Assembly (NCBI GenBank): GCA_914767715.1
Contig: OU612067.1
Span: 15,133,001 to 15,197,000, forward strand
Length of the DNA: 64,000 bases
From: Membranipora membranacea
Lineage: Eukaryota; Bryozoa; Gymnolaemata; Cheilostomatida; Membraniporidae
Reading direction: 5' to 3'
Shown: positions 23,001 to 60,895 of the stretch, piece after piece
Layout: the number at the start of each line of letters is the position of its first letter
How positions within the stretch are numbered: the stretch's first letter is position 1
Program-made: the position numbers and the translations under genes
Notes under the pieces: model-generated
Seen by the model: only the letters and a program-made list of their open reading frames with translations
Databases searched by the model: none
What the model was told of the DNA's origin: nothing

Positions 23001-26000
23001 GTGCCAAAATACTCTGATAGCTGATAGGAAATATTGTTGTTTATCATTTACCACTGCTATCTCTGAAAGTATTACCAAATGTTTAGAAGCAGGTTATATG
23101 GTTATTGGTTTCGATGATGAATGGTCCCAATACCAAACACTCATCGGTGTTTCAAATGTGTGTTGGTGTTGTATTGTTGGAGGGCTTTTTTTAAAACTTT
23201 TTGGGTATAACTTTTATGCGATGTACTTTAATCAACATTAACTGAGGTTTTGTGGCACCAAGCCCTCAAACAAACTCTGGATTTGTCTTAGACTGAAGTG
23301 ATAAAGACTATGGGGCTTATCAAAAGTACAAAAGTTGTTTTTTAGAGCTGTAGCCGACCAGACATGTCACCCCACCGAACTCACTGATCAATTATAACTT
23401 ATCTTATATTTGTTTTTAAAAGATTTTGATTATGTTTATATATGTTCACTCTTTGTTTTTTTAGACAGTAGCTGAGGCGTTGGCCAATGAGAATTTGCTC
23501 ATCAAGTGGGCCTTTGATGAGCTGATAAAGCAGTTTGGAGACAGTTTATATAAGGAGTACACAATGAGCGATCTTATCTGGGGTTACCATGATCCTATGA
23601 TGACCATGGCTATGAGACTACTGCCTCATATGTTCTACACTGATTTCCTGGGCATCTATGCTGGGGTTTGTTCACTTTATATATCAATCCGTAGACCGTG
23701 CTCATAATTATCTTCTGCTATTGATATCAAAAAATCTATGAGGCAGAGATCATGAATTAATGGGAGTTATCTGCTTATTGACCTTTTAGTTCAGGGACTG
23801 GGCAACTCAAAATTAATGAAATTGTGAACAAAAATCAAGTTTTCCGCACTGTTCCATCTGACTCCATAATTGAGTGGGGAACAATATTGGTCTGCAACTT
23901 TTTCTGATTTTCAAAGTTAGGAATCTTTTAGTTTACTATGATAATGCTAGTGTGCATCCTTGGTGTAGCTAAAGTTGAATTCGATGATAAACATTACAAT
24001 TCTGACTCACTGTTGATAATCATAATAAATAAGATTAAACTGATTAGAAATGTAAACTTACTCTGTTAGGCCAAACATGTGTCTGACATGATTTGTATGA
24101 TTGTAGAAAAACTACACAGATGACGGAGTCTGGACTGTAGATACAGGAGTAAATAACCTGACTAATGTAGGTCAGACCCAGTTCTATAACGGAAGTAAAT
24201 ATCTCAACTTCTGGTCTACTAAGTACGCTAACATGGTCAACGGTACTGGTAAGTGTAACATGACTACTAGTACTAAACCTATGACTTACATAGCTGGGTT
24301 TGATAAGTGCTCGATTAGCCTTCATACCTAAGATCTAGATAGGGTTGTGTAGGTTGTGTTGGTTTACTGCCCCCATTCCTCTTCTTTTGTGACTGGCACT
24401 GAACAAACAACCAATCTAGGTCAGTCAGGGGAAGCTCAACCTTTTGAGTTAGATGGCTCATTAACTGATTTATGCAGTGTAGATACTAAACAACATACAG
24501 ATCACTCGCTAAGCTCAACTGTCAACTGTTGTAATACAGCTGTAGGGTGAACAGCATGACAAAGATTGTGAAGAAATAAGGTTTTCAGTTTTTTGTGTGT
24601 ACTATCATTAAAATAGAATCTTTTTAGTACCTTCACAACTAAACTTTGAGGAAAAATTAGTTCAAGCTGGGCCATACGTTGTTAATGAACCTTTTCTAAA
24701 TTAGACTGAGAACTCTAGAATGATACCAAAAACCTGATTCCTTCACAATCACTTTAACATTGCATGTGGTTCGCACAGGGTTAGGATAGAATAGTTTGTC
24801 ACTTATCCTGGACAGATTTCCGACATGTCGGTAAAGATAAGCACAGCTGTATATCATGACTTAACTAAAGATCAGCTGATACATAATAGATAAGATTATA
24901 TATTGAGTTTATTAAGTGTGACTCCTTGGAATAAAACTTGGCTCATGCGGTTTAAAGTTTGTCATTGGAATCTTCCACCATATTGTTTGTGATACTTGTG
25001 GTGCCTTGTTTTATGTAATAGGAATGATGCAATACTAAAGCTGATGAAAATTGAACAGATTTTTAAAAATTTTTACAGATGGAACTATTGGACCACCACA
25101 TTTGACGAAGGACCACACAGTGTACTTCTTTGTTCCTGATATTTGCAGGTAATATATAGCACATCATGCATGTCAAAATGAGATTATGTTGCAGTATCAT
25201 AGTGCAATGATTTTCTGGTCTGTTTTGTGCCGAACTATAGTGATATCGTCCTCTATGGTTGTAATGTTTCACCTGCCTTTATTTTCTTCATCGGCATCAT
25301 CAGAAGTAAGATAGAATGGGATTTTGTGTATGCTAACAATGATTCGTAAAGTTCTTTTTGACATAAAAACATGTGAAGTGTCATACTAGCCGTTGGATAC
25401 GACCTTTCAACAACACCACTCCACTTCTCACATTACAAAATACCACCACAAATGTTAAATTCAAGCACATTTTCCTTTCCTCAGGTAACTGTATGAAGAT
25501 GAATTTCTTTTTGACATAAAAAATGAGTGATGTCAAACCAAGGGTCATAGTATAGTATATCTAATACCCTTGGTCTAACTAGACAGACAGACATGATCTT
25601 TCAACAACACCACTCATCTTCTTTCATTCTAAAATTGAAGCACATCTTTCTTTCTTCAGGTCTTTGTACGCAACTTATGTTAATGAGGAGAAGACGAGTA
25701 AGGGTATCACTCTGTATACATTCTCATCTCCCCGAGAGGAGATACTAAACGCGAACTCTAATCCTGATAACGCTGGCTTCTGTACTCCACCCGGTAACTG
25801 TATACTGGGGGACGGTATGATGAATATAACATCCTGTCAAGTGTGTAAGTATCACTAGTCAGCATAACAGGTCTAGTCTGAGTACCATAACTGTTTTGTT
25901 TGGGTGGTGCCTTGCTCTCACCCCAAAATAAACATCTGAGAAACTCAGGCAGTACTCGATCATCACACTGATGACGTAATATACTATTGCATGTATATCT

Positions 26001-29000
26001 CTGATCGATAGAGCGCGAACTTATTCACGGAGCATGAGTACCATCACAAGGATTTTGGTGTGACGACCCGTGTCCAAGTTCATTAATTGGGGCCGGAACA
26101 TGTTAGGTACTCATACTAAATTGACTCTAACGATCGGAGATACACATGATAATAGTGTAGTCTCGAGGTCAGCGTATCACTACTCAGCATAACAGGCCTA
26201 GTCTGAGTATCAGAACTGTTTGGTTTGGGAGGTGCCTTGCTCTCACCCCAAAATAAACATCAGCTTAACCAGGCTGTACTTGCTCATGGGGTTGTTCAGT
26301 CCAATGGCTCAGACGGCTGCAATGCAGGTAAGTGGCATTACACTATGAACCACCTAATGAGTGATTCATAATGTAAGCCCACTAACTCGCATTGAAGCAG
26401 TCTGAGCACCTATACTAGTGCTTGTTCCATTTCGAATTGCCTTGTTGCTGGGTTGTAGCTAGCCTGTCTTGTCAAGATTGTCTACGTAGCATGATTCAAA
26501 TGCAGCACTAGTGGATCTAAACTGAAATACATTTACTCAGTCACTAAGATAGTCCAATGAATACCTTTACCGAAGAAATACTCATGAGACAAGTTTTGTT
26601 ATGTATATTGCTGGTTTTTTGACAGTGGACGGGTTTAATGTACCGATAGTAGCATCACTACCTCACTTCCTGTACGCCGATCCGAAGTACCTAAATGCGG
26701 TGGAAGGTCTCAAACCCATCCCTCTGGAACACAGAACTGATGTGTGCATGGAACCAGTGAGTTATTATACCAAACCACTTGCTATTTAGAGGATATAAGG
26801 GTCAGAACATAATATCATTGGTTGGCTCTGATAGGTTTCAGTGTCTTCAGTTTCTGCGGGCAAAAACCCTCATATTGAGTTGCATTTCTGACTCCTTTTG
26901 TGGGGTCCGTTTGGTTTGGATTGATGTGACATGACCATTTTCTATATATAACAATCAATTTGAAAACTCAGTCAGGTACTGGCAACCAGAAAACTGTTAA
27001 CTTAACTATGAAATCCATGCATTCATATGAACATAACCAAAATCCATCCTCAAAAATTAAACACAGCAACTGGGGCAACCAGTGATGATGCACTAAACTA
27101 GTAATTTTTATCTCAGTAATACGATTTTTTTGTGATGTGACACAACCCACAACGAATGGTTGGAAATCTCTCGTGGGAGTCACAGTTACATGTGATGTAT
27201 TTCATATTGAGTTTCTATGAATTGTTGAATTACTTTTACCCCGCTGATGGTCTTGCACTTAGCCCATTTCCCTTTTGATAATATATCACTAATACTGGTT
27301 TGTTCACTCCTCACAGAAAACAGGCATAGTGATGAGGATAGCTAAGAGGTTACAGATAAACATCTACCTGAAACCTGTGAAGCATGTCAGCTCTATGTCT
27401 AATATCTCTGAGATTGTGTTCCCTGTCGCCTGGCTCAATGAGGTATGTAAACTTATCATATCTAGTAGGTAGAATTAGACCAAGTTAGGTCGATTTGCCT
27501 GCATTCGGAGTTGTTTCCCCTCTACTGGTCACGCCGCAGGCCATAAGGTTTTGCCTGTGGAAGGGAGCAACTTGAATCCAGGCAAGTGGACCAAACTTGA
27601 CCCAGCAGGTAGAATAGACAATGTTGTGGAGCACGGTGTGTGCAGTTTTTTGAATTCGGTCTTCTTTAAAAGATAAATTTAATAATTAGCAGCAATTTTT
27701 GGAAAAACTGGTGTTAAATCTTTAAGCTCGACAAAACATTTCATTCCTTGACCACATGTGGCAGAGACAGGATACAATATATAAATATAAACATTTATAT
27801 CTATATATCTATATATAGAAATATATGTTTATATATGTATTGAGATTGCAACAATGTAGGGTTCAATCTACTGATGACAAGTTGGCATACTGCCTAGGGC
27901 TCCTTGAGTTACATTGTATCACACCAAGTACAGAAGTTTTGCAGAAGTGCCCGATAAAGGTGACCCACAATGCAGTTTTCTGGAATACTACTGAGATCAA
28001 ACCAATGAAAAAAATAAAAACAGGTCTTGATCCACTGAGAATTGTCATGAATCAGTTTGTTGTGTATTGGGCCAGTCAGTAAGTCCACACATATCTGACC
28101 CATCACATACAGTAAAACTTGTTCTCCCAACTAATTAGTCATACAACTTTAAGTTGTATGACTTTTGTTTTGGTTGGATTTATTATTATTTTTGCAACAC
28201 TTTTTGGGCTTCTATAAGTCAAGAACTACTAGACACAATTTCATATAACTTTGTCACAACATGGTTCCATATGTCTAGATGAGAAATTACGAAATGAATT
28301 TTTTAATTGTTATGTAATATTCGCTAATTAGACTAATTAGTGACAGACGTTTTTTGCTCTTCGTTGGTAATATCTTGAGAACAAATCATGCGATTGAGTT
28401 AAAACTTGGAATATGGGGGTTTTGACATATACCGAATCTAATGACATCATTGCCTATGATGTCACATGGCCCGATATACAAAATGGCCGCCATATACTGT
28501 AAATTGCAGCTAACTAACAATTCTTATGATGCGATTGAGTTAAAACTTGGGATATGGGGGTTATGACATATGACATCTTATGACATCATCAATTTTAATG
28601 TCACATGACCCGATATCCAAAATGTTAATGTCACATGAACCGATATCCAAAATGGCCGCCATAAACAGGAAGTGGCTGCCGATAAATAGCTCTTATCATT
28701 CGATTGAGTAACAACTTGGGATTTCGGGGCTATGACATATACCGAATCATATGACATCATTGAATTTGATGTCACGTGACCCGATATCCAAAATGGCCGT
28801 CATAAACATTAAGTGGCTGCCGATTAACAGTTCTTATCATGTGATTGAGTTAAAACTTGGTATTTGGGGGTTATGACATGTGCCGAAGCTGATAACATCA
28901 TCAATTTTCATGTCACATGACCTTGAAAATCATTATGGTCGGTTGTATGACTTCATATTTGCTCGCAAATATTATTACCGTTTCTAGTTATTATTTCTGT

Positions 29001-31789: not shown

Positions 31790-32081
31790 TTAAGAGGACA
31801 TTAGAGTGATCTTGATCCTCGAGAAGCATTCTCTGTAGTCGGCCGATTGGGTTCAGATACAGCTGTCCATGATGGCAGCAGTGTATCTGATGGTGCAGGC
31901 GCAGCAGATCTCCCATACCTTCAGAGAGGGGGTTACTGACCAAACCATGCAGCATGAGGTAATGGCGTAACAGCGACCCCAGCAGAGACCAAGCATCCAA
32001 GTGGAAATTACAGTAAGGAAATCAGGCAGGAAAGTTGTTAGAATCCCTGTTAACAAGGTCTGGTCTTCCATCTTCACCCAT
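31790..32081 (-). pseudogene. Caveolin pseudogene (internal deletion plus premature stop)
   Basis: From 32081 the minus strand begins like exon 1 of its neighbours (MGEDGRPDLVNRDSNN), then jumps without an intron into the middle of exon 2 (FLTVISTWMLGLCWG). The last six codons of exon 1, the intron and about 36 codons of exon 2, including the caveolin signature, are missing, and the two parts are in different frames. A TGA replaces the GGA codon expected after SCI. The 3' end still reads like the family (FSRIKIT) and stops at 31790. One deletion explains the structure better than retroposition. It is closest to the genes starting at 34510 and 40070. Confidence 0.85.
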
Positions 32082-33148
32082 GTTTAGATCTATTAGTACT
32101 TTATGAAGAAAAACACACAAGTGAAAGGTTACAACTGATCATGCTGTTGCCAATAGATCAAGCATACGGCTTTATTTTGCTTTAGCCCGTTGCTAAAGAG
32201 CAAGTTCTCAAGGTTAAGGTAGGCTTTTTTTCCCCTCATTATTCAGCAACACAAATGACTTATGTTTCTATTTTTTATGGTGCATGAAATGTATCAGATT
32301 CCTTGACCAATTATCAATTTATAAAAATAACAAAAACAGTTTTTAAATTGTTTGTGAATGCAACAGGTGTCGTTGATGCTGACCGAACCTTATTTCAATA
32401 CGCTTTAAGCTATAGCTGCCACATGAAGGTCATTTTAGGCTAGCTTCATAATAACTGCTGAATTTGGAATCAGCAAGTCCCATTTTAAGCCATTTGGACA
32501 TGTTCTGGACAGAGTGACAATGCGATTCTATAACCTGAAGATGTAGTGAGAGTGAGAGATAATTCGTTCAATATTAAGAGAAAAGAAAATATAAATTCAA
32601 GCCTGAAATTACCCAGAATGCCTTTTGTAGAGACCAACCTTGATAACGTGGGTAGAGGAGCTTTGCTGCTTACAAATTCAACAAGCTAGTTAGAAGGTCA
32701 CAGTTTTTCCTAACTGTTTAATAACTACCAATTCGGCAAGGCATATTCCAGTGCTGAATGTGTTGATTCTGATTGGTTGGTTTGCTCCCCAGACCAATCA
32801 GTGCTAGCACATAGGCTAGTGCTGAGTGACAATGTAATATGTACTCCAAGGGAAAGTATTCATGGGGAGATAAAGCCTAAACATTGATTTTAGCGAAAAT
32901 TTAATTTGTTCTAAAACAATTTTATTCAACAGAATGGTCTACGTTGGTGACAGATTGACTTTCTTTATTGATTCATTGAGTCAGCTTAATCAAACGGAGC
33001 ACTTCTAAAATGGGAGGTTTGGGTGGCAATGAAAAAATAATACTAAAACCGATGAATGATCTATTTAAAATGGAAGAACATGATAAAGCAAGCAAAGATT
33101 TTAGTGTCTTTAGGTCTGTAAGCTGGAGATCTGTTGCAGCCTGAAAGA

Positions 33149-34510
33149 CTAAGAGGAAGATTGAGTGATCTTGATCTTCGAGAGGCATTCTCCATAGGCG
33201 GCATATTGGGTTCCGATACAGCAGTCCATGATGGATTGAGTGTATCTGATGGTGCAGGCGCAGCAGATCTCCCATATCTTCAGAGAGGGAGTAACTGACC
33301 ATATCATGCAGCAAGAGGTAATGGCGTAACAGCAGCCCCAGCAGAGACCGATCAACCAGGTGGAAATAATGGTAAGGAAGGCATAACAGCACTTTCTTCC
33401 ACCCTCATAACCACAGTAGCCACATTTCCATGCACAGTCGGGCGAGTGGAGGTTTTCTGGCTCTCCAAATACCTCCTCAAATGTGGCCTACAGAAAAGTA
33501 ATATTTCACTTTATGATACTGACAAGTTGCAGCATGAGATAAGACTCACCAGATTTACCGGATAGGAGAAGAACATAAAAAATTTGAATTCTTAGCAAGT
33601 TGAAATACCTGAAAAGTGAATTGGAATGGTATACCTTTAAGGTCAAGGGTGAAGTTTAACACGCAATCAACAAAAGCAAATTAATAAAAACTTGTTGTAT
33701 TTTCAATATCAAGTAACAGCAAATTTTTAATTGTATATTAATATCAGTTGTCACAGAATGGATTTGGGTATTTAATTTAAAAAAGACACAGTTTATACAT
33801 TTGTACATGGAGGTTGAATGATCTTTCATTGTAAAGAAATATCTGTTACTGCTGACCTGTTAGATGTTAAAACTCACCCTAGCTCTGATTCGTATTAGAT
33901 GAAGCATCACTATAAAGTCAGCAGTTAGGAGTCAGCAGTTAGGAGTCAGCAGCGAGCAGCCAGTATTATTGTAAGCAGCATTATCAGATCAGGTAGCAAA
34001 CTAACTTGTTGGTATATTTGCTTTTGTTATAGTGGCTGCACACATTAGTAAAATTTTTTTTTGCGCCCGGCTTTGCTCTGGCAAAGTTATAAGCAGTAAA
34101 AAATCAGTTGTAGGTGAACAAATACAAATCAACCAGCACAAATGACAAGTTTTGAGTTTGTGGTCTATTCTGAAGCTGAAGGGGTTGTCGGCTAATTTTG
34201 AGAGAGTATTTCAGGATCTTGTAGGAGATGATCAACTTTTTTTCATCACAATTAGCCAATTTAATTTAGTTTTGATTTCACCTCAAGATACTCGACCAGC
34301 TTTGCTGGTCGTTGTCAAAATTCACATAATATATTGAAACAAAATGCCAGCGTTTTCCAAGCTATGATCATGCGTTTTCCATGCTAACTCGGCCACAGGC
34401 ATTATAATCATGAAGCTTTGAATTCTCAGCAGTGGTTAACTTACGGATAAACTGTCGTTCAGGTTGTTAGGATCCCTGTTAATAAGGTCTGGTCTTCCAT
34501 CTTCACCCAT
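33149..34510 (-). CDS. Cysteine-rich caveolin, two exons, 134 residues
   Basis: Exon 1 is 34445-34510 (MGEDGRPDLINRDPNNLNDS onward, 22 codons, donor GTAAGT). Exon 2 is 33149-33487 (112 codons plus stop, acceptor TGTAG). The family signature appears as FEEVFGEPE (vertebrate FEDVIAEP), followed by SPDCAWKCGYCGYEG, a long Cys- and Trp-rich hydrophobic hairpin (TWLIGLCWGCCYAITSCC, WSVTPSLKIW) and the C-terminal SKIKITQ, matching the SNVRI region of known caveolins. Caveolins insert as monotopic hairpins in the cytosolic leaflet and assemble into discs that shape membranes. About 17 cysteines are likely palmitoylation sites. It is a close paralogue of the gene starting at 40070. Confidence 0.9.
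33915..33970. repeat. Short tandem AGTCAGCAG repeat in a caveolin intron
   Basis: TAGGAGTCAGCAG is repeated about three times, then GCGAGCAGCC. It aligns in position with a GGCAGC-rich patch in the intron of the gene starting at 40070. Confidence 0.5.
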
Positions 34511-36120
34511 GTTTGAACTTTGAATTTTTCTAAATCGAGGATCGGGAGCGGCTGATTACGACTTGTTATGCTGGTGATAACAGTGAGAGTGAGTATGGCG
34601 CTAGTCCGAGTGGGCGGCAGCGACTCTACAGGGCCGTAGTTAAAAAAAATGGCAGGGGAGGCAAATATCTGAGACAGGTCCAAAACATCACTCGGAGGGA
34701 TGCTACAGTCTCCAAAAGCAATTTAGGTTATATAATAGTCAAAGGAAATCCCAAAAGAGCTGTTTATGACATGGATTATTCAATTTATTTGTTTTTAGGC
34801 CACCTCATTTAACTTTTTGGGGGACCCAGTGCCTCCCCTATAACTACGGACCTGTTATATTTGTTTTGCCTCGTCGCTAGACAGCCATTTTTACAAAGTT
34901 TATGCATGTTTTTTTCCCATTATTCAACCACACAATTGTTTTTTGTTTTAATTCATGAAATGTTTTGAAATAATATCTGATTTAATGTTTATAATAAATT
35001 ATTGTTCAATGCACATTGTCATGAATGAGCATTGGTTAACCTACATTTCAAACTAGTTTATCTTAAAGGCTCGCAGACAGGGATATTTGAGAGCCTAATG
35101 GTTATCAGATTTGGAATCCTCATGACTCATTACATACAACTATTGGAAGACATGGAAGATTGACCAAAAAGCTAATATTTCCATCACAAATTGCTTATCA
35201 GATCTGAAAGGTCACCTTGACTAGTCGCTAGCGATAGGTGCATGAATGCTCATATGACCTACTGTCGGGCAGATTTGAGACGTTGTATGACAGTCTTGAG
35301 ACATTGTTAGGCAGACATGATTTGTGGCCTAATGCATAGACTGAAAGACCAAAATACTGGGTTGGATAACTATACACCCAATCCCTCGATTTTTATGGCA
35401 CTGATGTTGGGTACCTTTCAGTACTGGGTTAGTTTTCTTATGTCTGGAACAACAGAGGTCAGAGGTCGCAAGTCTAGTTCAAGATAATAGGTTGAATAAA
35501 TGTTAGCTAGCGATAAATGTTGTTATTTCTAGCCTCCTAAAATTGGGGAACTTTGACAAGAGAATATTTTCCAACATGCGCTGAAGCCTGTTTCTAGACA
35601 TTAAAACTGGGATATACCTTCACCTAGCAAAATGTTTACTTCTCACTATGAGCGATTCCTATTTCATGACATATTAAATTTTGTTTGTGTCTTGCCCGTC
35701 TACGGCTGTTTCAGACTTAAAACCAGTAATTGCTCTGCATACCTGATGCATAGATTGTTTAAAAGTATAATAGAATGGTTGAAGTTGTATTGAATTAAAT
35801 TGTCGAAGTAAATCTTGATTAGACATGTTTCTGTTTATTTTATTATTGCACAAACATTGAAACAATTTATTGCAATTGGGATTGATTGCACTGGCAGTAA
35901 AATGTACAATAAAAATAAAAATAATCTTGTAAGAAACACTCCAAGTCTATACTATAAATCCTGCTTTAGTGATTGCGAGGAGTTCAGATCGTCTATCCGT
36001 AATATTTTATGAATTATCCTGATGGAGTTGTTGTGTATCCAAGAACAGTTAGATGATGTAGTTAGCGAGATCTTAATATTTATATTGGTTGAGCTGTGAG
36101 TCAGAAGAATAGTGGTAGTG

Positions 36121-36210
36121 GTCAATTAACCAGAGGTCTGAATGACTTTGGTCAATTAACCAGAGGTTTTAATTACTTTGGTCAATTAACCAGAGGTCTG
36201 AATGACTTTG
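36121..36210. repeat. Three 30-bp tandem units over the end of a caveolin reading frame
   Basis: Exact 30-bp spacing at 36121, 36151 and 36181 (GTCAATTAACCAGAGGT core). The unit at 36181-36210 contains the last codons and stop of the caveolin exon at 36186-36524. The other two lie in its 3' untranslated region in the same frame, each with its own in-frame stop. Confidence 0.85.
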
Positions 36211-36524
36211 ATATTCGAGAAGAGCAGACCTAAGGCTGAGCAGCATGGTCCGATGACGCAATCGAATACGAGCTGTAACATTTGTCTCAGACACGCAAAC
36301 TGGTTTGTGTAGAGCTTGAAGCAAGGTGTAGTGCACCAGATCTGCTCGAATATGGTACAGGCGTAGCAGCATCCCCACATACAACCAAGGATCCAGGTAC
36401 ACAGGAAGGAGAGAAGCTTATAACAGCAGCTCAGCGCTCCCTCGTAACAGTCAAATCCACATTTATAGGCGCAGTCAGGAGAGTGAGACGTGTCAGGCTC
36501 TCCGACAACCTCCTCAAAACGTAC
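36186..36524 (-). CDS. Caveolin terminal exon without its own first exon (partial)
   Basis: A TTTACAG acceptor at 36525 opens 112 codons and a stop, the same length as exon 2 of two neighbours. It reads V-R-FEEVVGEPD, SPDCAYKCGFDCYEG, a cysteine-rich hydrophobic core (CTWILGCMWGCCYACT, TTPCFKLY) and the diagnostic C-terminus LLFSNIKVIQ. The frame is intact and looks under selection. No ATG exon resembling MGEDGRPD was found between here and the next gene's second exon at 38021. Options: it is an alternative last exon of the gene starting at 40070 (phases match), its exon 1 has diverged beyond recognition, or the copy is dying. It is more divergent from the 33149 and 38021 exons than they are from each other. 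Confidence 0.75.
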   Translation of the reverse strand, partial: VRFEEVVGEPDTSHSPDCAYKCGFDCYEGALSCCYKLLSFLCTWILGCMWGCCYACTIFEQIWCTTPCFKLYTNQFACLRQMLQLVFDCVIGPCCSALGLLFSNIKVIQTSG

Positions 36525-38020
36525 CTGTAAATAAAAAATTGATTTGTTGTTAAAGGAAATGTTTGTAAATTAAATATAATGTTTTGTTAATACTTGAATG
36601 TATTGTTACTACCACCTAAACAGAGATGGAACAACTCCTTCGATGAAAAGATTTATTTTTCAGTAGTTTTCGTCAGTATTGTTTTTACGTTGCTTGGTCT
36701 TATTTGTAATGCCAACAATATTTATATGTGAAGCATTCATTTTGTAACAGCAATGCGGCTCTATTACTTTTTTAAATGATTTGTTTATGATATTACTTTG
36801 ATATCGATCACCGAAGAAAAACCTAGCCTGGGGTAGAAGCTACGTGTTTATAAATTTAGTTCTGGTACTGGTTTTCCATCCATCCACAACTGTTATTTGT
36901 GCCCACTTTTCATATTATTCATGCTGCTACATATGACAAAATCCGGAAGGCTTTCTATGTACAATTTATAAAACTGAGCCATTAAATAAAACAGTATTCT
37001 AAATTTACTCCCAAATTTTGGAAACTGGAGTGTGAAACTAGTCAGTGTTGTAATGTCGAAATTAAGATTCTTTCGAATAAAAAAACCAATACTGTTGTCA
37101 GATGGGCTAAGCTAGACAGTAGTATCTGCTTTCATTATGACAAGCAACCTGCCTGATAGTTTGGCGTAGTTTTTAATTTTTCCCAAGAACCCCGAATATA
37201 TGATGAAAATTGAATTACATCAATATCAAATTCAAATGGTCGTTAGAACAGTAATAGATTGGCAGTGAGACTACAACAGCCAAATTTTTCACCTATTGTC
37301 CCCCACCCCCTTCCCACAAGCTAGAATCAATTTCTGCTAGTAATTATAACTTGGATTAACAACGTCAGATGAAACACAATTGATAGTTTCCATCTCATAT
37401 AACAAATAACGAAATAGTAAAAAATTGGAATTTATCTATCTCATTGATTAGCATCAATTCCCTACATTGAGCAGAGAGTTGTCTTCCTTTTTATCGGAGT
37501 GGGACAACTGCCCACCATCGCTGTGAAACACTAAGCTAAACTAAAACTAAACAGGCTTACGTAAATAAATATTGGTGAGTGATGTACCTGAGAGATATAC
37601 AGTAAACACAATCTAAAACATTCAGTTTTGACATAGCTCAATTGAATTCCTTTCTCCTGACTAAAGTTGTTCTCTTAGACGTATTGCCATTGAGGAACCA
37701 TCATCGGCTTTTTACGCAAGAGAAACGTGATGTCCTCCCCTTCCCCTCCAATGTGAAAGTTTTCACATTAAATGAAATTCGCCTTCTGTTGCTACGTAAC
37801 TGTATTTTTATTCAGATAAATAAAATATGAAAGGCATGTGGTACTTTAAAAATTACATTGACATAGAAAAAGTGCAAAAGTGTGAGGTGATGTTTTAACT
37901 TGGCAAAGAGAGCACATAATTTAACCAAGATTTTTAGTTAGTTTAGACTGTGGAAGATTGTCGGAAGCACTATTAATCACAATCAGCTGTTGAAAGCTAA
38001 AAAAGACAAGTGGATTGACG
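36525..38020. other. Gap where a first exon for the 36186 caveolin was expected
   Basis: AT-rich sequence. No MGEDGRPD-like exon was seen on the minus strand and no other gene is supported. Confidence 0.5.
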
Positions 38021-40070
38021 TCAGCCCGTCTTTTGAGTGATCTTGATCTTCGAGAAGCATTCTCCACAAGCCGCTGACTGCGTTCCGTAACAGCAGTCCA
38101 TGATGGCCTGAGTGTATCTGATAGTGCAGGCGCAGCAGATCTCCCATACCTTCAGAGAGGGGGTCACTGACCATACCATGCAGCAAGAGGTAATGGCGTA
38201 ACAGCAGCCCCAGCAGAGACCGAGAAGCCAGGTGGAAATAACGGTAAGGAAGGCATAACAGCACTTTCTTCCACCCTCATAACCACAGTAGCCACATTTC
38301 CATGCACAGTCGGGCGAGTGGAGGTTCTCTGGCTCACCGAATACCTCTTCAAATGTGGCCTACAGAAAACAAAATTTTCCAATTTACTGAGGATAAAATG
38401 GTTAATGTTTTAGAAAGGTGGCGCTAAGATAAGCATTCTGTTCTATTATGACCATCCGGGTTTGCCAAATAAAAAAGTGCTCAAAGATTTCATTGAAGGA
38501 CAATTGATCATTATGCAGCGGTAATCCAATTTTGCCCGCAGATTCTTTTTTTTTTGCGTTATGGGGAAACAAAAAAGAGTAACTGTGTGACAAGGCTAGT
38601 GTTGAATATTATACATCGCAATAAGAAGTATAAAATATTACTTAGCATTGGCTTACCTTTATAGAAACATGCCGTTATGTAGAAGCATCACTCGGCAGCG
38701 ACAGCGTTTAAAACTGTTAAAAGCGGCAGCATCATCAGATTGGGTTAACCAGGTGTTTGGATTAAAGACACTCGATGTTAAGAAACTCTATGTAGCAGGA
38801 TTGTTAGATAAAGCCATATAATTATTTATACATATATATATATATATATATTTATTTATATATACACATAAATATGTATTTATATGTTTATGGATAAAGC
38901 AGCAAGTTCTATGTCACTTCATACCGATAGCTGCAGGGAAAGTATCTCATGTTTTTAGATGGTATTTAGCGTTTAAGGTTTAATGTTACAGCACCAATCT
39001 CAAAAGAACTAATTTTAAAATGCTTCCAATTTGATAAAACACAGTATACATATTTACAGGTTTACATATTTATAGGCACCCCTACCAATTACGAACACAT
39101 ATTTTTCACCACATGTGGAAATGGGAGAAGAAGTTGTTTGCATCTTTTACGTAACTTGAAATGAAATGGAAATTGGATTAGTTTAACTTGTTAATTAAGT
39201 TCTTGTTCAATGTAATGTAATATCAATAGAACTTTGTTACAATTTTACACTGACTGAAACAGACCTTAGTATTGGAAATCAACACTGCTGAATTCTTTCT
39301 CTGAGTTCATCAATTCAATTCATTTAATAACGCTAATTGTAGTGACATCAAATCGATTTGAGAGATAAAAGCCATATTGTTCACTATATTAAACAAGAAT
39401 GTTGGCATCATGTCACCATAGCAACCCTCCATGACAACGGCACCATAGTAATATTGATTTTACACACCATGTGTTTTGAGTCTAACAATTTGCCTGATGA
39501 AAGTGAGAAAGCGGATCGCTGCCCTGATGAGTAGAGAGAGATTTTCAACTTGAATAAAATTAAATTCAAGTGCATCACGTATGGGATATGTAAATTGTGC
39601 CTAGAAACGTCCCAGCATGCATCAAATATTTAGACAAACAGTTGTTTATCATAGAAACTCAACCCAATGAATTGAAGAGGGAGTTTGTTGCTCTTCAATT
39701 ATTAACTAACTTGAATTGAAAACCACTTTCAATTTCATTTGATCCAGACATAAAGGTTTTTTTAATATTATATCGTAGCAAATCGATCATTTTTATAGCG
39801 ATCACCACAGTTTAGTGACTCCTCATGAGTGTATTGAGGAAAATATGATGCTAAATGAAATATCCACTCCATTCTAGCTATGCTATTGAAGCTATAAAAC
39901 CATTCCATCCACTCATTTCTATATGTACCACGCATTAAAGGTGTTACAATTATGAAGCTTATTGAGTAAATAGGCTAGCGTAGAATTCACAGCGGTTAGC
40001 TTACCGATAGACTGTCGTTCAGGTTGTTAGGATCCCTGTTGACAAGGTCTGGTCTTCCATCTTCACCCAT
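38021..40070 (-). CDS. Cysteine-rich caveolin, two exons, 134 residues
   Basis: Exon 1 is 40005-40070 (MGEDGRPDLVNRDPNNLNDS onward, donor GTAAGC) and exon 2 is 38021-38359 (acceptor CTGTAG). The signature FEEVFGEPE, then SPDCAWKCGYCGYEG, hydrophobic hairpin STWLLGLCWGCCYAITSCC, WSVTPSLKVW and C-terminus SKIKITQKTG. Function, membrane topology and cysteine content are as for the gene starting at 34510, to which it is nearly identical in both exons, so the two are a recent tandem duplication. The 1.6-kb intron holds GGCAGC-rich sequence near 38690-38735 and an AT microsatellite near 38835-38880. Exon 1 could also splice in phase to the orphan exon at 36186-36524. Confidence 0.9.
38826..38890. 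repeat. AT microsatellite
   Basis: A (TA)n run followed by TTTATTTATATATACACATA sequence, in the intron of a caveolin gene. Confidence 0.7.
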
Positions 40071-40815
40071 GTTTAGATTTTTGTGTGTTTTTTAAAGAGA
40101 GGAATAAACCAAAAGATGTAGCGACTTTGCTGACGATATCACAAATTGTGAGCGAGGGTGCGGCAGCAATACGTTCATATACGAGACGAGTTGGATGTTT
40201 TATTTCGTTGCTAGTTAGCCGTGTCTTAGGCTGCTTTCCTTTTCTTTTTATTCAGCCACACAATTATTTTTTGTTTCCGTTATTGATGTCTTTTGATATT
40301 CTTTTCTTACTACTAGCCATTATCAATTAAAAAAACCAAAGGCCTTTCTTTTCTTTGATACATGAATCGCTTGTTGTATTGTGGCTTACATGCCTTGCTA
40401 GAGTAAGACACATCCAATCAGCTTTGCTAAAGCTCAATGTAGGAATGTCAACCATTGAAAACCTAGAATGATACATTTTATAAATCAAATTGTTAGGGGT
40501 ATTGATGTGTGCCTTGATGTATTGATAAAATTAATTGATGATGTGAAATTTTAATGTCAATGAACTCGTGTTGGAGAGTTAAATAGTTGTACTGTATTAA
40601 TGTGAACAAAAAATGACTGTGATGTAAACTGTTAAAATAAACAAAGTCTCCGTTGTCGGTGGCGCAGACAAAATGTTTTGGCAAATGGGTGGAAGAAAAT
40701 ATAAAGAATGAAATATCACAGATCTTGAAGATGTAGTACTGGTCCTAAGGTATTAGTCCGAAAAGTTTTCTTTGGCTCAGAGTGCGGCAGAGCACTGAGA
40801 ATCTAAATTGTCAGA

Positions 40816-41656
40816 TCATGATTGCGTGACTTTGATATTACTAAACATCATACCACATGCAGCGCAACATGGGCCGAGGCAGCAATTAACGGCAGCTTCA
40901 CAGAACTGCTGTTGTATTCCGCACACCATTGAAGTGACTCTGAGTGAGGGTGTCCACGACCAGACATATGAGAAAGTGACACAGGCGAACTCGCATCCCC
41001 AGCAGAGAGCGTATAACCATCCGCACAGCACTGCCATACACTTGTAGCAGCAACCTCTGGCTCCCTCGTAACACTTAAAGGCACACTTCCATGCGCATTC
41101 TGGTGATCGGACGCCTTCAGGCTCACCAAATACATCCTCAAACTTTACCTGTAAGATACAAACAAGTGATGTGGTGAATTATTAACAAAACCAATGTCTT
41201 CAGTACTTTCAATGCCTAATGAACTGTCTAATTGTCTGTGTTGCTGTCTAAATGTAGCTGTCTAATTTACTATCTAATGCAGCTTTCAAACTATAAGAGA
41301 ATACAACAACTTCACACCACAGTGGCATGTTTTTTTAAGGAAGTTTGTACCAATCCAATCATATGAGTTTCTAGCAAAATAAAGTTCAATCTCCTATTAA
41401 TGAAAGCAGTAGACTCAAGAAAAATTCTTTGATACAAAACTGCTCTATGATAAGTCTGTTATGAGTGTTTAATTAAAGATATAATAACTTGAGAGTATGG
41501 GAGATAACTTCCAATAGAATATTATAACTTGTTAGTAAAAATATGTAACGGTCGAGTCGTTAAAAAGACAACGTGGGCGATAATTACCTGCAGATTGTCA
41601 TTGAGACTGTTTGGGTCTCTGTTGATGAGGTCAGGTCTTCCGTCTTCTTCACCCAT
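40816..41656 (-). CDS. Cysteine-rich caveolin, two exons, 133 residues
   Basis: Exon 1 is 41588-41656 (MGEEDGRPDLINRDPNSLND onward, 23 codons, donor CAG|GTAATT). Exon 2 is 40816-41148 (110 codons plus stop, acceptor CTTACAG). The signature is FEDVFGEPE, then SPECAWKCAFKCYEG, GWLYALCWGCEFACVTF, WTPSLR, and a C-terminus GMMFSNIKVTQ very close to that of vertebrate caveolins. About 17 cysteines. The intron is only 439 bp. The upstream region contains ATGGATACGGCA at 41955-41966 and several GGCAGC motifs, shared with other members of the array. It groups with the genes at 42.5, 45.0 and 47.1 kb rather than with the 33/38-kb pair. Confidence 0.92.
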
Positions 41657-42521
41657 TGTGATGTGAAAGTTGAAATTAAAATCCGAAAAGATTTAAAAAA
41701 TTGAGCTCAAGGAAGATCGGTCGACTTATATAGGTCTAACTCCTGTGTCAACTATTCGTGAACTGACCAGCAATCGGCAGCAACGGGCCTTAAAATTCTC
41801 AACCCTTTGGGTCAGCAAACACGTAAAGCAAGCAGAAATCACCACCATAACATACTTTGTAGTTAGGGATGTTATTTGCAGATAGTCTTATGCCTGTGAT
41901 TGAGTGCGGGTTCATTTCGGCGGCCAGCAAGGGATCACCGATGCCCTATATGTTATGGATACGGCAGCATCATAAGGATAGCGCTGCCGATGCCGAGACA
42001 GGCACCGTGGCTATTATGCAAACTGAATCACTATGATGTTTCATAGCACACATAGTAACCACTTTAAAGCTTGCTAAAAAGTAAACCTAGAATTTCACTG
42101 ATATGGGAGTAGAGTTTGTATGAATATTGACAAGTCATAATAGATATGTACACATCCTGTCCGCTTGTATTGTTGAGACAACCCAGATTAATTACTATAT
42201 GATTTGCAAAACAATCTGTAACCTGCGCTCGCTCGTATCAGATATCACATACACATTAGGAAGGAAAACAATCCAATAAAAGAAAAACCATCAAAAAACT
42301 TTGACCTGAAATGGTCCTTCAACTGACCAATGAAAAACCAATGTCTCAAAATCCTTGTCATTTGCAGTATAGAGAGGATAGTCTGTATATTTATCTCATT
42401 GTAACATTAAATCCACTTTCATCAAATCGCCAATACAGAGGAAAAAAGAATCAAGTTTCAATCATCGGAAAAATTTGTGAAATTGATATTTTGTTAGCAT
42501 GACCTTGAAACTTGACCTTCA

Positions 42522-43343
42522 TCAGCCCTGCTGAATTTGAACTCTAATGTTACTCAGCATCATACCATAAGCAGCACAAATCGGGCCACAGCAGCAATTT
42601 ATGCAAGTAGTGAACAGCTCTTGGACGACTCCACATGTTAGCTTGAAAGTTTTCAGTGTAGGGGTACAACACCAGATGTATTTGAAAGTGATGCAGGCGA
42701 ATGAACAACCCCAGCAGAGGGCATAAAACCAGATACACAAGACGCTCAAGGTCTTGTAGCAGCAGCCTTTAGCACCTTCGTAGCATGTGTATCCACACTT
42801 CCAGGCGCAGTCTGGTGAGTGGGCGCTATCTGGCTCCCCGAATACATCCTCAAATGCAACCTACAATAATAAATAATTAGTATATAGCTTGTGAGAAGTC
42901 TTAAATGGGAACAGATTTATGCTCTGATTAAAATTCTTAGTTAATGTATTTTCCAATGTTTCCATGTTACAGTTACAATTATACCACGGCACATAAAACT
43001 TGACCATTAAATTAAAAAATAACAGGCTCCTTTAGCTCAACTTCATCAAGATAGCGTATAAATTATTGGTAAACCATTATTTAAAGAGCCTGGTCTTCAA
43101 TATCATTACAGAGTTTTTTATGTTGTAATTAAAGTTAGCAAAAAAACCCCAATTAAGCTAATGATAATTATTCTAATTTCATATTTATAGCATATTGAGA
43201 ATGAAATACATTATTTTGATACCAGCTTGCTTCTATCGCTCACTTGTTTTATTGACTAGGTAGGTAGTGAAGCTTACCTGCAGATTTTGGTTAACGCCGT
43301 TTGGGTCTCTGTTGACCATGTCTGGCCTACTATCTTCTCCCAT
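42522..43343 (-). CDS. Cysteine-rich caveolin, two exons, 134 residues
   Basis: Exon 1 is 43278-43343 (MGEDSRPDMVNRDPNGVNQN onward, donor CAG|GTAAGC). Exon 2 is 42522-42860 (acceptor TTGTAG). The signature FEDVFGEPD is followed by SAHSPDCAWKCGYTCYEG, the hairpin IWFYALCWGCSFACITF, CCTPTLK, a CCCGPIC cluster and GMMLSNIRVQ. The C-terminus has an extra Gln-rich tail compared with neighbours. Head-to-tail with the gene at 40816 and transcribed in the same direction; its start codon lies 1.6 kb from the oppositely oriented gene at 44958. Membrane-shaping caveolin role by family. Confidence 0.92.
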
Positions 43344-44957
43344 TGTGCGAAAATAGATGCAGTAACAAAACTAAAAGATATATTACACTAAATATTGTGT
43401 GGGGTTGAAGATGCTTCTAAAACTATGCAGACCTCTGAAGCTCCAAACTACGAATGCCAACAGGTAGCAACAGGATCATGTTATTAATTTGAGGCAGCAG
43501 GTTTTTAAATTGCGGCAGCACTTCACCATCACTAAGTAATGGCATTTTGGAAAATTATTTATCTCAGAATACTCTCATGTTATCATTACAATGTATAAAA
43601 AGTACTTAATAAAATAAATTTTCATTTGATATTCAGGAGCCTGTTCAAGCAAACAATTTCTTAGATAATAACCCAGCACAGCATAGCTACTGGTATCAGC
43701 TATAAACACTGTTTAATGAAAATCACATAGCCAAGGGGGGCGTCGGGCGGGGGGGGGGGTGGGGCAAAAGTCTGGGGGCTCAGCCTAGGAGAAAGGGGGA
43801 GTTTGCTTGTTTGTTGGTGGGTGTCCAAGATAGACTTCTATCTCGGCCCCTAGAGACCATGTCCAACTCAGAATATTGACTACTTTTGTGGACCGAAATC
43901 ATAAACGCGAAAGTGACACCAGATAAGATATGTTATATATTTAAAGGCTTCCGATCAGCCCAGTTTAATTTGGGGTCAATAATATCAAGATTTGGGAGTT
44001 GCATTGATCAAAGCGAGTACCAGTGCACTTGTGCACAGTTTGTTCCACATCTTGTACAGTAGTATTGTGGAATCAGTACTATAATTCATTTTAAAATAGA
44101 GACAATTGCGACTAATTTCAAGGCCAATGATAGAATTGAATGTTTTTATAAACCCGCATTTGAGAGGTTTTCAATACAGTTTCAATCAAGAGCCTTTGCA
44201 ACTCATTGGTTCAATGTACAGTCATGTAGTATACAGTAAGCATATTACAGCCTGTCCCATTTCAGCTTGATGTATTTCAGATTTATAGTCAGTATCATTG
44301 AGTATTGATCAATGTCACATACACTTATGATAACTTGTAGAACACTAAGTTCAATTGATTTTTATTTTGTTTCTTGTTTATGACATACACCTGCGATCCT
44401 TAACCTCTGTTCGATGGCCACTGACAGGGAAGGACCAGAACGAGAGGGGAGAGGGGGGGGACTTAATACCATATGAGCTAGCTTCGCTTCGCATGAACTT
44501 TTTTGTGTGACAATTATACAATGAAGATGGACCTTTTCTTTGTAGCAAGGCTGAAGTTCGAATTGAAGATGAGGATTTATGAGTCATTGTGTTCCCTAGG
44601 AGGAATTAAAACTATGCCCCCCTTGTCCGACTCTCTCAAAACTTGCACGCTCCTTTCTCAAATTATTGGCAATTTAGAGGGCAATTGCAATGATACAAAT
44701 CTACTGAATAGGAATCCCCTGGACCACTTTAGAGGCTAATAATTGTCATATTGTTTCTAATTTAATCCCCTCTGGGACATATGTAAAGTTTCCTAGCGAC
44801 GATGTAAGCTTGTTTTTAGCAGCATCCTATGACCCCCCTTTTTCGAGGCAGCGCCATCTGCATGTTTAAGTCAGCGTCCGACAGCACCTGACGACAGTTA
44901 CGCTACATCACCGGAGAAGAGAGGTCGTTCCGAGAAATAGAAAAGCCAGAGATAAAA
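43344..44957. promoter_or_regulatory. Divergent region between two caveolin genes
   Basis: Start codons at 43343 (minus) and 44958 (plus) face apart. The region holds GGCAGC motifs near both genes (TGCGGCAGCA at 43511, GAGGCAGCG near 44845), a G-rich repeat at about 43735-43790 and no supported coding exon. Promoters of both genes must lie here. Confidence 0.4.
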
Positions 44958-45842
44958 ATGGGTGAAGATGACGGACGTCCCGATATGGTCAACAGAGATC
45001 CCAATGGACTCAACGAGTCACTAGTGGTCAGTATATTTATTGAGAAACTAATTTTCTTTTATATTATTTTCTTTAAATTAATGAGTCGCCTAAATTTTTT
45101 ATAAATATTGAATCTTAAAATAAGATCTGCTTTTATCGAAGTTCCGACTCTTATGTTTTGTGTAAGGTACATACATTTATTGTTATAATGGATGAAATGA
45201 GGCCATGACGGCTATATTAGAACACTGAGGGCAGAAGGAATGGGATTAATAACGGTTCACATTAATATTGTTCTAGACCATTTCATATGACTTCTACTGC
45301 TTCGTTAGCCATAAGATAGTACTCCTACCAAGTTTTACTCATGCGCATATTGGAGGTTTTGAATTCAATATTATCCATATTATATATTTATTTATATATT
45401 AGGTAATTAAGTATAGTATTGTCAAATGAACTCTTATTATGCGGTGATACAATATGGTACCCTTAAGTTTTATTATCTTTAATGACCTTTAACCTTATTT
45501 TGATTATAGACGACCTTTGAGGATGTATTCGGGGAGCCTGATAGCGCCCATTCACCAGACTGCGCCTGGAAGTGTGGATACACATGCTACACTGGAGCTA
45601 AAGGATGTTGCTACAAGACCCTCGCCTATCTATGCATCTGGCTCTACGCTTGTTGCTGGGGATGTGAATACGCCTGTATCACATTTGAGTACATCTGGTG
45701 TTTCACTCCTTCCCTACACATATTCAAACTTGCCTGCGGAACCTTCCAAGGACTTTTCAACACCTTCCTCAACTGTTGCATAGGTCCGATATGTTCTGCA
45801 TGCGGCCTCATGTTCTCTAATATCAAAGTAACTCAGGGATAA
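44958..45842 (+). CDS. Cysteine-rich caveolin, two exons, 133 residues, plus strand
   Basis: Exon 1 is 44958-45026 (MGEDDGRPDMVNRDPNGLNE onward, 23 codons, donor GTG|GTCAGT). Exon 2 is 45510-45842 (acceptor ATTATAG, 110 codons plus stop). It reads FEDVFGEPD, SAHSPDCAWKCGYTCYTG, hairpin CIWLYACCWGCEYACITF, FTPSLH and the C-terminus GLMFSNIKVTQ. This is the only plus-strand member of the array. Exon 2 is about 97% identical (9 differences by eye in 333 nt) to exon 2 of the convergent gene at 47133-47981, but introns, first exons and 3' flanks differ. Polyadenylation signal at 46111. Confidence 0.92.
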
Positions 45843-47132
45843 CAACCACTGCTTGGCGGCAGCCAGAATCTCTCAGCTCAATGACTCAGTCTGCCCAGAT
45901 ACGCCGTGTTCTGTCACGTTGCGTCCAGATGTCATGTTGTCGAATTCTTTTTTACCATCAAGTCATTGTACTACTGTGGTATTTGTATGTTGAACTGATC
46001 ACTGCAAAATCACATTTTTTATAATCATCAACATTTTTTTCTAATTTCACTGGCTTCTAATATTTATATATATGCTATTATGCAGCAACACTCTCTAAAC
46101 TCTCAGCCATAATAAAGATCTTAACCAACCTCGCCAAGTCTTCAATATGATCTTCATTGTTTTGCTGATTCCATCAGCTAGGGATTTGACACACAAAAAA
46201 GGAATTGGTACGCAAGATTTCCAATGCAATCGTGAATAAAGTTTGATGAGGGCACAATGAGGATTAGCAAGGATGATCTTATTTTACGACACGGATCCCC
46301 TTCTTCTCAGTGAATTTTATTGTGCCTTTCAGATAAAAAAACAGCAGTAGTATGTAGTCTCTAAAATTCTCAAGAAATTATGTGTTGAGAAGGAATAACA
46401 ATCATCATCGACTCCAAACACTATGCCACATTGACATATATGAGGTTGTACACAAGATAAAAAAATGGGATATAAATAGTACCACCAGTGTGGTGAGTTG
46501 CAACACTGTTTCAGTGTGCCTGGGTTGATGAGCCATTTATTTCATCCCTGTGACACGACACACTATATCTGTCACACATATTACAAATTAGAGACCCACC
46601 CCTTGTTTGCTGGCTGTTATGAGAGACAACTTCTGACAAATGATTTGTGGTTTGCATGGATACCGATGTCTAGTAGTGTGAGCCCTCCATATTTTTGCCC
46701 TGTCTGGCGCCCCCAAAGCTTGTGGAGATCCCTCATAGAGTATATTTAAGAGTCTCCCATAATGCAATTCTCCTTAACTTTGATGACTTGTAATTCTGAC
46801 TGAATATCTATTGTGTTCTGGGTTTGAGAAGGTTAAAACATTTCACTGATAAATAGTAGCTTTTGAGTTTTTTAAAGTTTTTTATTGATATGATAGTCTT
46901 TAAGGATAACAAAATAGATGAAAATTGTAAAAATATGTTGAAATGCAAATTTTACTGGCAGATAGATTTGACGGAGGACAAATTATCCTCTTATAGTTTC
47001 TATGCGGTTCTTGATTTTGACAACAAATCTAAGAAAGTTGCCACAAAGGCACAAACATTGCCTGATATAACCCAAAAATCAGGTCTCATATCTTGTGTAC
47101 AGCATGCATGGTCAGCAAAAATACAAGCCACG
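45843..47132. other. Space between the convergent caveolin pair
   Basis: No gene is supported. The 3' flanks of the two genes show no similarity from the first bases after the stop codons. AATAAA at 46111-46116 is a good polyadenylation signal for the plus-strand gene. Confidence 0.5.
46111..46116 (+). terminator. Polyadenylation signal AATAAA of the plus-strand caveolin
   Basis: AATAAA lies 269 nt after the stop codon at 45842. Confidence 0.55.
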
Positions 47133-47981
47133 TTATCCCTGAGTTACTTTGATATTAGAGAACATGAGGCCGCATGCAGAACATATCGGACCTATGCAAC
47201 AGTTGAGGAAGGTGTTGAAAAGTCCCTGGAAGGTTCCGCAGGCAAGTTTGAATATGTGAAGGGAAGGAGTGAAACACCAGATGTAATCAAATGTGATACA
47301 GGCGTATTCACATCCCCAGCAACAAGCGTAGAGCCAGATGCATAGATAGGCGAGGGTCTTGTAACAACATCCTTTAGCTCCAGTGTAGCATGTGTATCCA
47401 CACTTCCAGGCGCAGTCTGGTGAGTGGGCGCTATGTGGCTCCCCGAATACATCCTCAAAAGTGGTCTTTAATAAAAAAATTAGATAGCAAAGTTATAAAA
47501 TGATGACATTTTATGTATTTACTTGGTTTTATGAGATGTTGTATATATATAGGATACTTGAAGACTAAATGGATCCGCTGATAACATTTTTGAAGGTACT
47601 GCTTGGAATTTCTTGAATTCAGAGTTTAAAAAAACCAAAAGAATTTCATCTCCTAAAGCTGCCTTCATTGTTCCAGTGAAATTTGATCAATTGATAATAA
47701 TAATTATGTCCTGTCCTGGTGTAAAGACGAATTTTGTTTGCAATTCCAAATATAGTAATGGTTTATATTTATATTAGTTTAAAATTCAAAGCGACTTGTC
47801 TCATGAAGCTGCAATTCCAATAAGTTGCGGTTTATATATATATTTATATAAAAATAATAATAATAATATAATATTATAATAAATTTAACAATAGTTTGTA
47901 TGTAGATGTACCTACCACTAGTGAGGCGTTGAGTCCATTGGGATCTCTGTTCACCATATCAAGTTCATCTGCTGCACCCAT
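47133..47981 (-). CDS. Cysteine-rich caveolin, two exons, 132 residues
   Basis: Exon 1 is 47916-47981 (MGAADELDMVNRDPNGLNAS onward, donor GTG|GTAGGT) and exon 2 is 47133-47465 (acceptor ATTAAAG). The signature is FEDVFGEPH; only two residues in exon 2 differ from the convergent gene at 44958-45842 (Asp to His after GEP, Glu to Asp before YIWCF). The N-terminus lacks the GEDGRPD string of every other member. The acceptor has A rather than a pyrimidine before AG, which may weaken splicing. ATGGATACGGCA at 48121-48132, about 140 bp upstream, is shared with the gene starting at 41656. Family role: membrane hairpin and scaffold. Confidence 0.9.
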
Positions 47982-60681: not shown

Positions 60682-60895
60682 AATGGTATATTAAAGATTT
60701 GATCACAATTTCCAGTTCTTTTTAAAATCAAGCCAAAGCATTTGATTCACTGCCATCCCAGGCAAATTTGTACTTTTTTTTATCAATTGTCATCGAGTTA
60801 GGAAGAGTTTGTAATCAGTTGTGTGTGTATATATAAAGTTGAGGGGTGTAAATAGTGATCGGTGATGCTGTTTGGTTCAATTTGGAGTTGGGTGA

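Follow-up and report, generated by a model that had tools for sequence, protein, structure and literature searches.

What history produced a compact set of cysteine-rich caveolin genes in the genome of the bryozoan Membranipora membranacea, and what role the cysteines of the encoded proteins may play, are the questions raised by a locus on contig OU612067.1 (assembly GCA_914767715.1). The stretch analysed, here called the window, comprises 64,000 nucleotides (contig positions 15,133,001 to 15,197,000), and the caveolin cluster spans window positions 31793-47981, with six complete two-exon genes (A and C to G), a lone terminal exon (B) and one deletion pseudogene. The best overall explanation, to which we give a probability of about 0.7, is that the cluster grew through old duplications, at least one of which would predate the split from Watersipora and Bugula, and that it is still changing by gene birth, by the death of one gene and, for F and G at least, by conversion limited to the exon encoding the protein core.

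Seven long exon 2 frames with a caveolin signature are present in a mechanical list of open frames. Six of these are preceded by a copy of exon 1 that measures 22-23 codons and ends at a GT donor, and all six pairs join in frame across phase-0 GT..AG introns of 957, 1645, 439, 417, 483 and 450 bases (A, C, D, E, F and G, in that order), giving proteins of 134, 134, 133, 134, 133 and 132 residues with 16, 17, 17, 17, 16 and 16 cysteines. Gene F is on the plus strand and all other members of the cluster are on the minus strand. A profile of the 22-residue exon 1 gave six scores of 71-98, all from the known exons, and a next best of 20; the scan skipped stretches containing stops, and the exon 1 of the pseudogene, which was found by similarity, is hence unscored. 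In the pseudogene the first part of exon 1 leads into central exon 2 sequence, and the blastn blocks against A and C leave about 13 bases at the junction unmatched; a DNA deletion thus produced this copy, which is not a processed one. The in-frame joins and the similarity searches thus bear out the inventory given in a preliminary description of this DNA. The only hint of transcripts across the exon 1/exon 2 junction comes from the database protein P0001, which matches the gene E protein except for 2 of 134 residues and spans the junction; its contig measures 1572 bases, and since the protein is uninterrupted despite this shortness, a spliced transcript or a gene model may be its source.

The proposed caveolin identity was confirmed by the Pfam Caveolin model (PF01146), which matches all seven intact exon 2s with E values of 9.3e-20 to 1.6e-28 and scores of 71.4-99.7 bits, well above the curated cut-off of 25 bits (the searched frames of B, D and G carry a few extra intron codons). 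The motifs named in the preliminary description, FE[DE]V[FV]GEP, SP[DE]CA[WY]KC and a C-terminal [FL]SN-I-[KR]-V or SKIKI, were all found in seven of seven in the alignment, the first of them corresponding to the FEDVIAEP-like caveolin signature. The monomer model shows no strand at the C-terminal SNI[KR]V or SKIKI segment, the end at which Type II caveolins have a beta-strand, and Foldseek returned no match at E <= 10 against the PDB. The profile match to Cav1 reaches 151.2 bits, against 60 and 37.2 bits for the other two solved caveolins, as is characteristic of Type II; the window core aligns without gaps to 7sc0 in the comparison with human CAV1, and the NRDP stretch can be aligned with Cav1 starting at residue 46, in a region where Cav1 has the Type II pin motif (49-60) ahead of the signature. 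The match to 9dn0 (2.1e-15), which we take to be a sea urchin Type I caveolin, is weaker than that to Cav1, and 9dn0 has one cysteine in 118 aligned residues. Human CAV3 presumably has an intron at the same place and phase, a point on which the papers listed gave no useful support and which carries no weight here. An N-myristoylation site, suggested by the MG- start, was rejected, as the PROSITE pattern, in the form that we assume it to have, fits neither MGE nor MGAADE. The NRDP region and the FEDV..EP signature are common to the window proteins and human CAV1 and CAV3, which are Type II in a survey of caveolins available in PubMed Central (PMC; PMC12330381), where CavY is the name of a vertebrate caveolin clade.

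The age of the cluster can be judged from its relatives. A search with the window alignment gave 72 proteins, of which the nearest with a named source belong to the bryozoans Watersipora subatra and Bugula neritina. Three proteins from Watersipora (P0002, P0003, P0005) and two from Bugula (P0004, P0007) are 47-63% identical to gene E and resemble the window proteins in length (132-133 residues) and cysteine number (16-18). The first tree, like the column-wise cysteine comparison below, omits P0070-P0072 (3 of the 72), and two later trees used 24 and 20 chosen database proteins. A group of 19 rows unites the seven window genes, the five named bryozoan proteins and seven further proteins (support 98, and 100/99 in a second tree). 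Judged by this group alone, the window would probably come from a cheilostome bryozoan, which agrees with Membranipora. Within the group, A and C share a clade with P0036, P0005 of Watersipora and P0007 of Bugula (100/100), apart from the other window genes, whereas D groups with Watersipora P0002 (86/79 in one tree, 82/95 in the tree without B) and E, F and G fall near P0003 and P0004 with weak support (78/74, tree without B). In these trees, nothing close to the F/G pair is seen among the Watersipora and Bugula caveolins. Forcing the window genes and P0001 into a single clade (8 rows) costs 70.6 log units with p 0.0002 in the approximately unbiased test, and 71.6 log units with p 3.6e-5 when B is left out (7 rows), while a clade of D with E, F, G, P0001 and P0006 was not rejected (p 0.12). 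The array is not one species' recent expansion, and from the rejected single clade and the grouping of A and C it follows that at least one duplication predates the split from Watersipora and Bugula.

The linkage of the genes may be old as well, as is suggested by the equal longest contigs of the two Bugula protein clusters (both 413,818 bases) and of the three Watersipora clusters (all 77,133,738). Among the matches listed, caveolin protein clusters also share a longest-contig size in other lophotrochozoans, namely Mactra (4), Dreissena (4), Lineus (3) and Gigantopelta (3), as they do in Watersipora (3), so multi-copy linkage is probably not unique to this animal. The open PMC titles listed by our searches included none on caveolin gene arrays, bryozoan caveolins or cysteine-rich caveolins. 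A protein of 276 residues from the mollusc Tegillarca granosa (P0073) appears by eye to contain two caveolin units, and may be a fusion or a gene-model join of neighbours.

Conversion is suggested by the pattern of similarity between F and G, which lie in inverted orientation about 1.3 kb apart on one contig. Their exon 2s are 97.3% identical, with a synonymous divergence (dS) of 0.11, whereas the last 150 intron bases (z 1.1) and the 300-base 3' flank (z 0.8) are at shuffled background. The same holds for the intron end (z 1.0) and 3' flank (z 0.3) of A and C, whose exon 2s are 89.7% identical (dS 0.28) and whose 5' flank has a z of 2.6, and in both pairs the match begins 10-12 bases before the exon and stops no more than 12 bases past the stop codon. 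The ratio of nonsynonymous to synonymous divergence is low in comparable gene pairs. Since near-identical exon 2s adjoin an intron end and a 3' flank at background, exon-limited gene conversion is the simplest reading of F and G in this one genome. Another possibility is that each near-identical pair goes back to a recent duplication of the whole gene, followed by rapid decay of non-coding sequence, or consists of unmerged haplotypes. It would explain why the F/G 5' flank is still homologous (69% identity, z 11.5), and it gains weight because exon 1 of A and C (dS 0.26) is as close as their exon 2; weak similarity over the whole F/G intron (z 3.1; 2.1 for its first 200 bases) and where the A/C intron begins (z 4.0) likewise weighs against conversion. 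It fits poorly, on the other hand, with the background values next to exon 2 in both pairs, with an exon 1 dS of 0.33 in F/G (4 changes at 15 sites, thus few sites) and with the inverted placement on a single contig, and we hold it to be unlikely. A and C are a weaker and ambiguous case of the conversion that we favor for F and G.

Exon B raises the question of whether a terminal exon without a first exon of its own is still in use. Its frame is open over 112 codons with 16 cysteines, its motifs, acceptor (TTTACAG) and poly(A) signals are kept, with AATAAA 315 bases past the stop, and it lies on a long branch (0.84). That the frame has stayed open despite this branch speaks against B being a dying fragment, as do the retained motifs and signals and a neutral simulation, in which a B-like exon was still open in 17.5% of runs at a distance of 0.1, 2.4% at 0.3, 1.1% at 0.5 and 0.5% at 1.0. 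Decay would nevertheless account for the lack of an exon 1 between B and C exon 2 (the exon 1 profile scored highly only for the six known copies), for a 30-base tandem repeat of about 3 copies (36119-36210) that overlaps the 3' end of the coding exon, and for the fact that a search with B alone matched only Bugula P0004, at 48% identity; we regard it as a serious possibility, somewhat short of even odds. Alternatively, B may serve gene C as an alternative last exon, C exon 1 being spliced to B by skipping C exon 2, which is feasible because all six exon 1 donors are in phase 0.

The preliminary description had also drawn attention to the cysteines. Its counts were correct, with 16-17 in proteins of 132-134 residues and 16 in the 112 residues of B exon 2, and vertebrate caveolins are indeed cysteine-poor in the case of CAV1 and CAV3, with 3 and 6 potential palmitoylation cysteines, respectively (PMC10212548), but not in that of five frog and bichir proteins. 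Nor is the density special to this array, as it is usual among 85 named relatives, arthropods being lower. These were placed in phyla by name, following taxonomy that we take as given except for Watersipora, which was looked up, and core cysteines were counted over 103 aligned columns in the 152 of 157 proteins that have 110-240 residues. Against 16-17 in the window genes, the counts are 16-18 in Bryozoa (n=5), 11-19 in Mollusca (n=44, median 15), 13 each in Brachiopoda and Rotifera (n=1 each), 12-16 in Nemertea (n=3), 14-16 in Annelida (n=3), 8-17 in Arthropoda (n=21, median 10), 14-16 in Hemichordata (n=2) and 14-17 in Vertebrata (n=5, caveolin-3-like proteins of frog and bichir); the 152 proteins overall have 7-19 (median 15). 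Both profile searches began with cysteine-rich queries, which favors cysteine-rich matches, and one of them is represented by 120 of 242 matches; the counts thus show that the cysteine-dense caveolin type is widespread in animals and not peculiar to this array or animal, and they do not give the frequency of cysteine-poor caveolins. The cysteine-rich proteins of molluscs, hemichordates, frog and bichir, with cores of 11-19 cysteines, share the NRDPN-like start of the window proteins, and the trees place them outside the bryozoan group.

The position of the cysteines is less easily interpreted. They had been described as spread through the membrane hairpin; the hairpin belongs to an older model, and in the terms of PMC12330381 they sit in the scaffolding and spoke regions. 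With the signature placed at Cav1 residues 68-75 (section 10 of the same article), residue n of gene E corresponds to Cav1 n+43. Columns 40, 44, 55, 56, 74 and 111 hold cysteine in seven of seven window genes. At the columns of the Cav1 acylation cysteines, which we take to be C133, C143 and C156 (E90, E100 and E113), by contrast, cysteine is found in only 1, 3 and 1 of the seven. The 19 columns with cysteine in at least 40% of 159 rows lean toward the hydrophobic helix face (mean helical projection 0.32-0.40, random columns 0.03-0.04; fraction 0.006-0.021), a trend from which column 40, among others, clearly departs. A rival view is that most of the cysteines serve for packing, as small hydrophobic residues, or as a thiol redox buffer, and that they are not densely acylated. 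Their scarcity at the Cav1 acylation columns and their occurrence at sites filled in Cav1 by common small or hydrophobic amino acids are in line with such a role, while cysteine in 89-93% of the 159 rows at columns 40, 48 and 56 is presumably more than free hydrophobic exchange would predict; we consider it almost an even call.

By analogy with human Cav1, the window proteins would form caveolin discs in the cytosolic leaflet, conversion may keep some of the subunits interchangeable, and the cysteines may act both as S-acylation sites and as small hydrophobic packing residues. A far-reaching combination would be that the ancestral bilaterian caveolin was cysteine-dense, CAV1/2/3 with their few cysteines being derived, and that bryozoans assemble their linked subunits, some held similar by exon-limited conversion and one made with an alternative last exon, into discs of mixed composition that are heavily S-acylated or respond to redox state; taken jointly, we find this improbable. 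The literature on caveolin acylation that surfaced here concerns cysteine-poor vertebrate proteins, and a word search of the main text of PMC12330381, a 2025 survey of diverse caveolins, gave no words starting with cysteine, palmitoyl, acylat or lipidat, yet 11-19 core cysteines are found in bryozoans, molluscs, annelids, hemichordates and frogs. With linked paralogues that have one core exon in common, a single animal would suffice to test both mixed-disc assembly and what acylation contributes.

Table 1. Parts of the caveolin cluster, in window coordinates
Feature	Position	Strand	Evidence
Pseudogene of A/C type; exon 1 start fused to exon 2 middle, with stops	31793..32081	-	tblastn; blastn blocks against A and C
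Gene A exon 2	33149..33487	-	Pfam Caveolin 4.1e-20; gene model
Gene A exon 1 (22 codons)	34445..34510	-	similarity search and gene model
Orphan exon 2 (B), 112-codon open frame	36186..36524	-	Pfam 2.8e-23; gene model
Gene C exon 2	38021..38359	-	Pfam 9.3e-20; gene model
Gene C exon 1, which B may also use	40005..40070	-	similarity search and gene model
Gene D exon 2	40816..41148	-	Pfam 3.8e-24; gene model
Gene D exon 1; TATATAAG 76 bases upstream of ATG	41588..41656	-	gene model
Gene E exon 2	42522..42860	-	Pfam 1.6e-28; whole gene E protein matches P0001
Gene E exon 1	43278..43343	-	gene model
Gene F exon 1, with a comparatively weak donor (GTCAGT)	44958..45026	+	gene model
Gene F exon 2, near-identical to G exon 2	45510..45842	+	Pfam 3.5e-24; pairwise comparison
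Gene G exon 2, near-identical to F exon 2	47133..47465	-	Pfam 1.3e-24; pairwise comparison
Gene G exon 1	47916..47981	-	similarity search and gene model

On the low-coordinate side of the cluster, a gene of the CD36/scavenger receptor B family with at least 3 exons occupies 20745-26786 on the plus strand (PF01130, E 1.2e-17, 2.8e-12 and 2.6e-12), its first matched exon lying about 11 kb from the pseudogene, and tandem repeats that overlap each other, with 141- and 169-base units in about 2 copies each, are found at 28459-28922. Further out are a tetraspanin exon (17803-18138, minus strand; PF00335, 1.4e-13) and an exon-like stretch at about 14874-14978 that resembles a tetraspanin large loop by eye, the frame covering it (14711-15067) being without a Pfam match. 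An HSP20/alpha-crystallin frame (9687-10346, plus strand; 1.6e-9) adjoins charged frames rich in Gln, Arg and Glu (8428-9552), and an F-box frame is present on the other side of the cluster, at 60418-60690 on the minus strand (1.4e-6).
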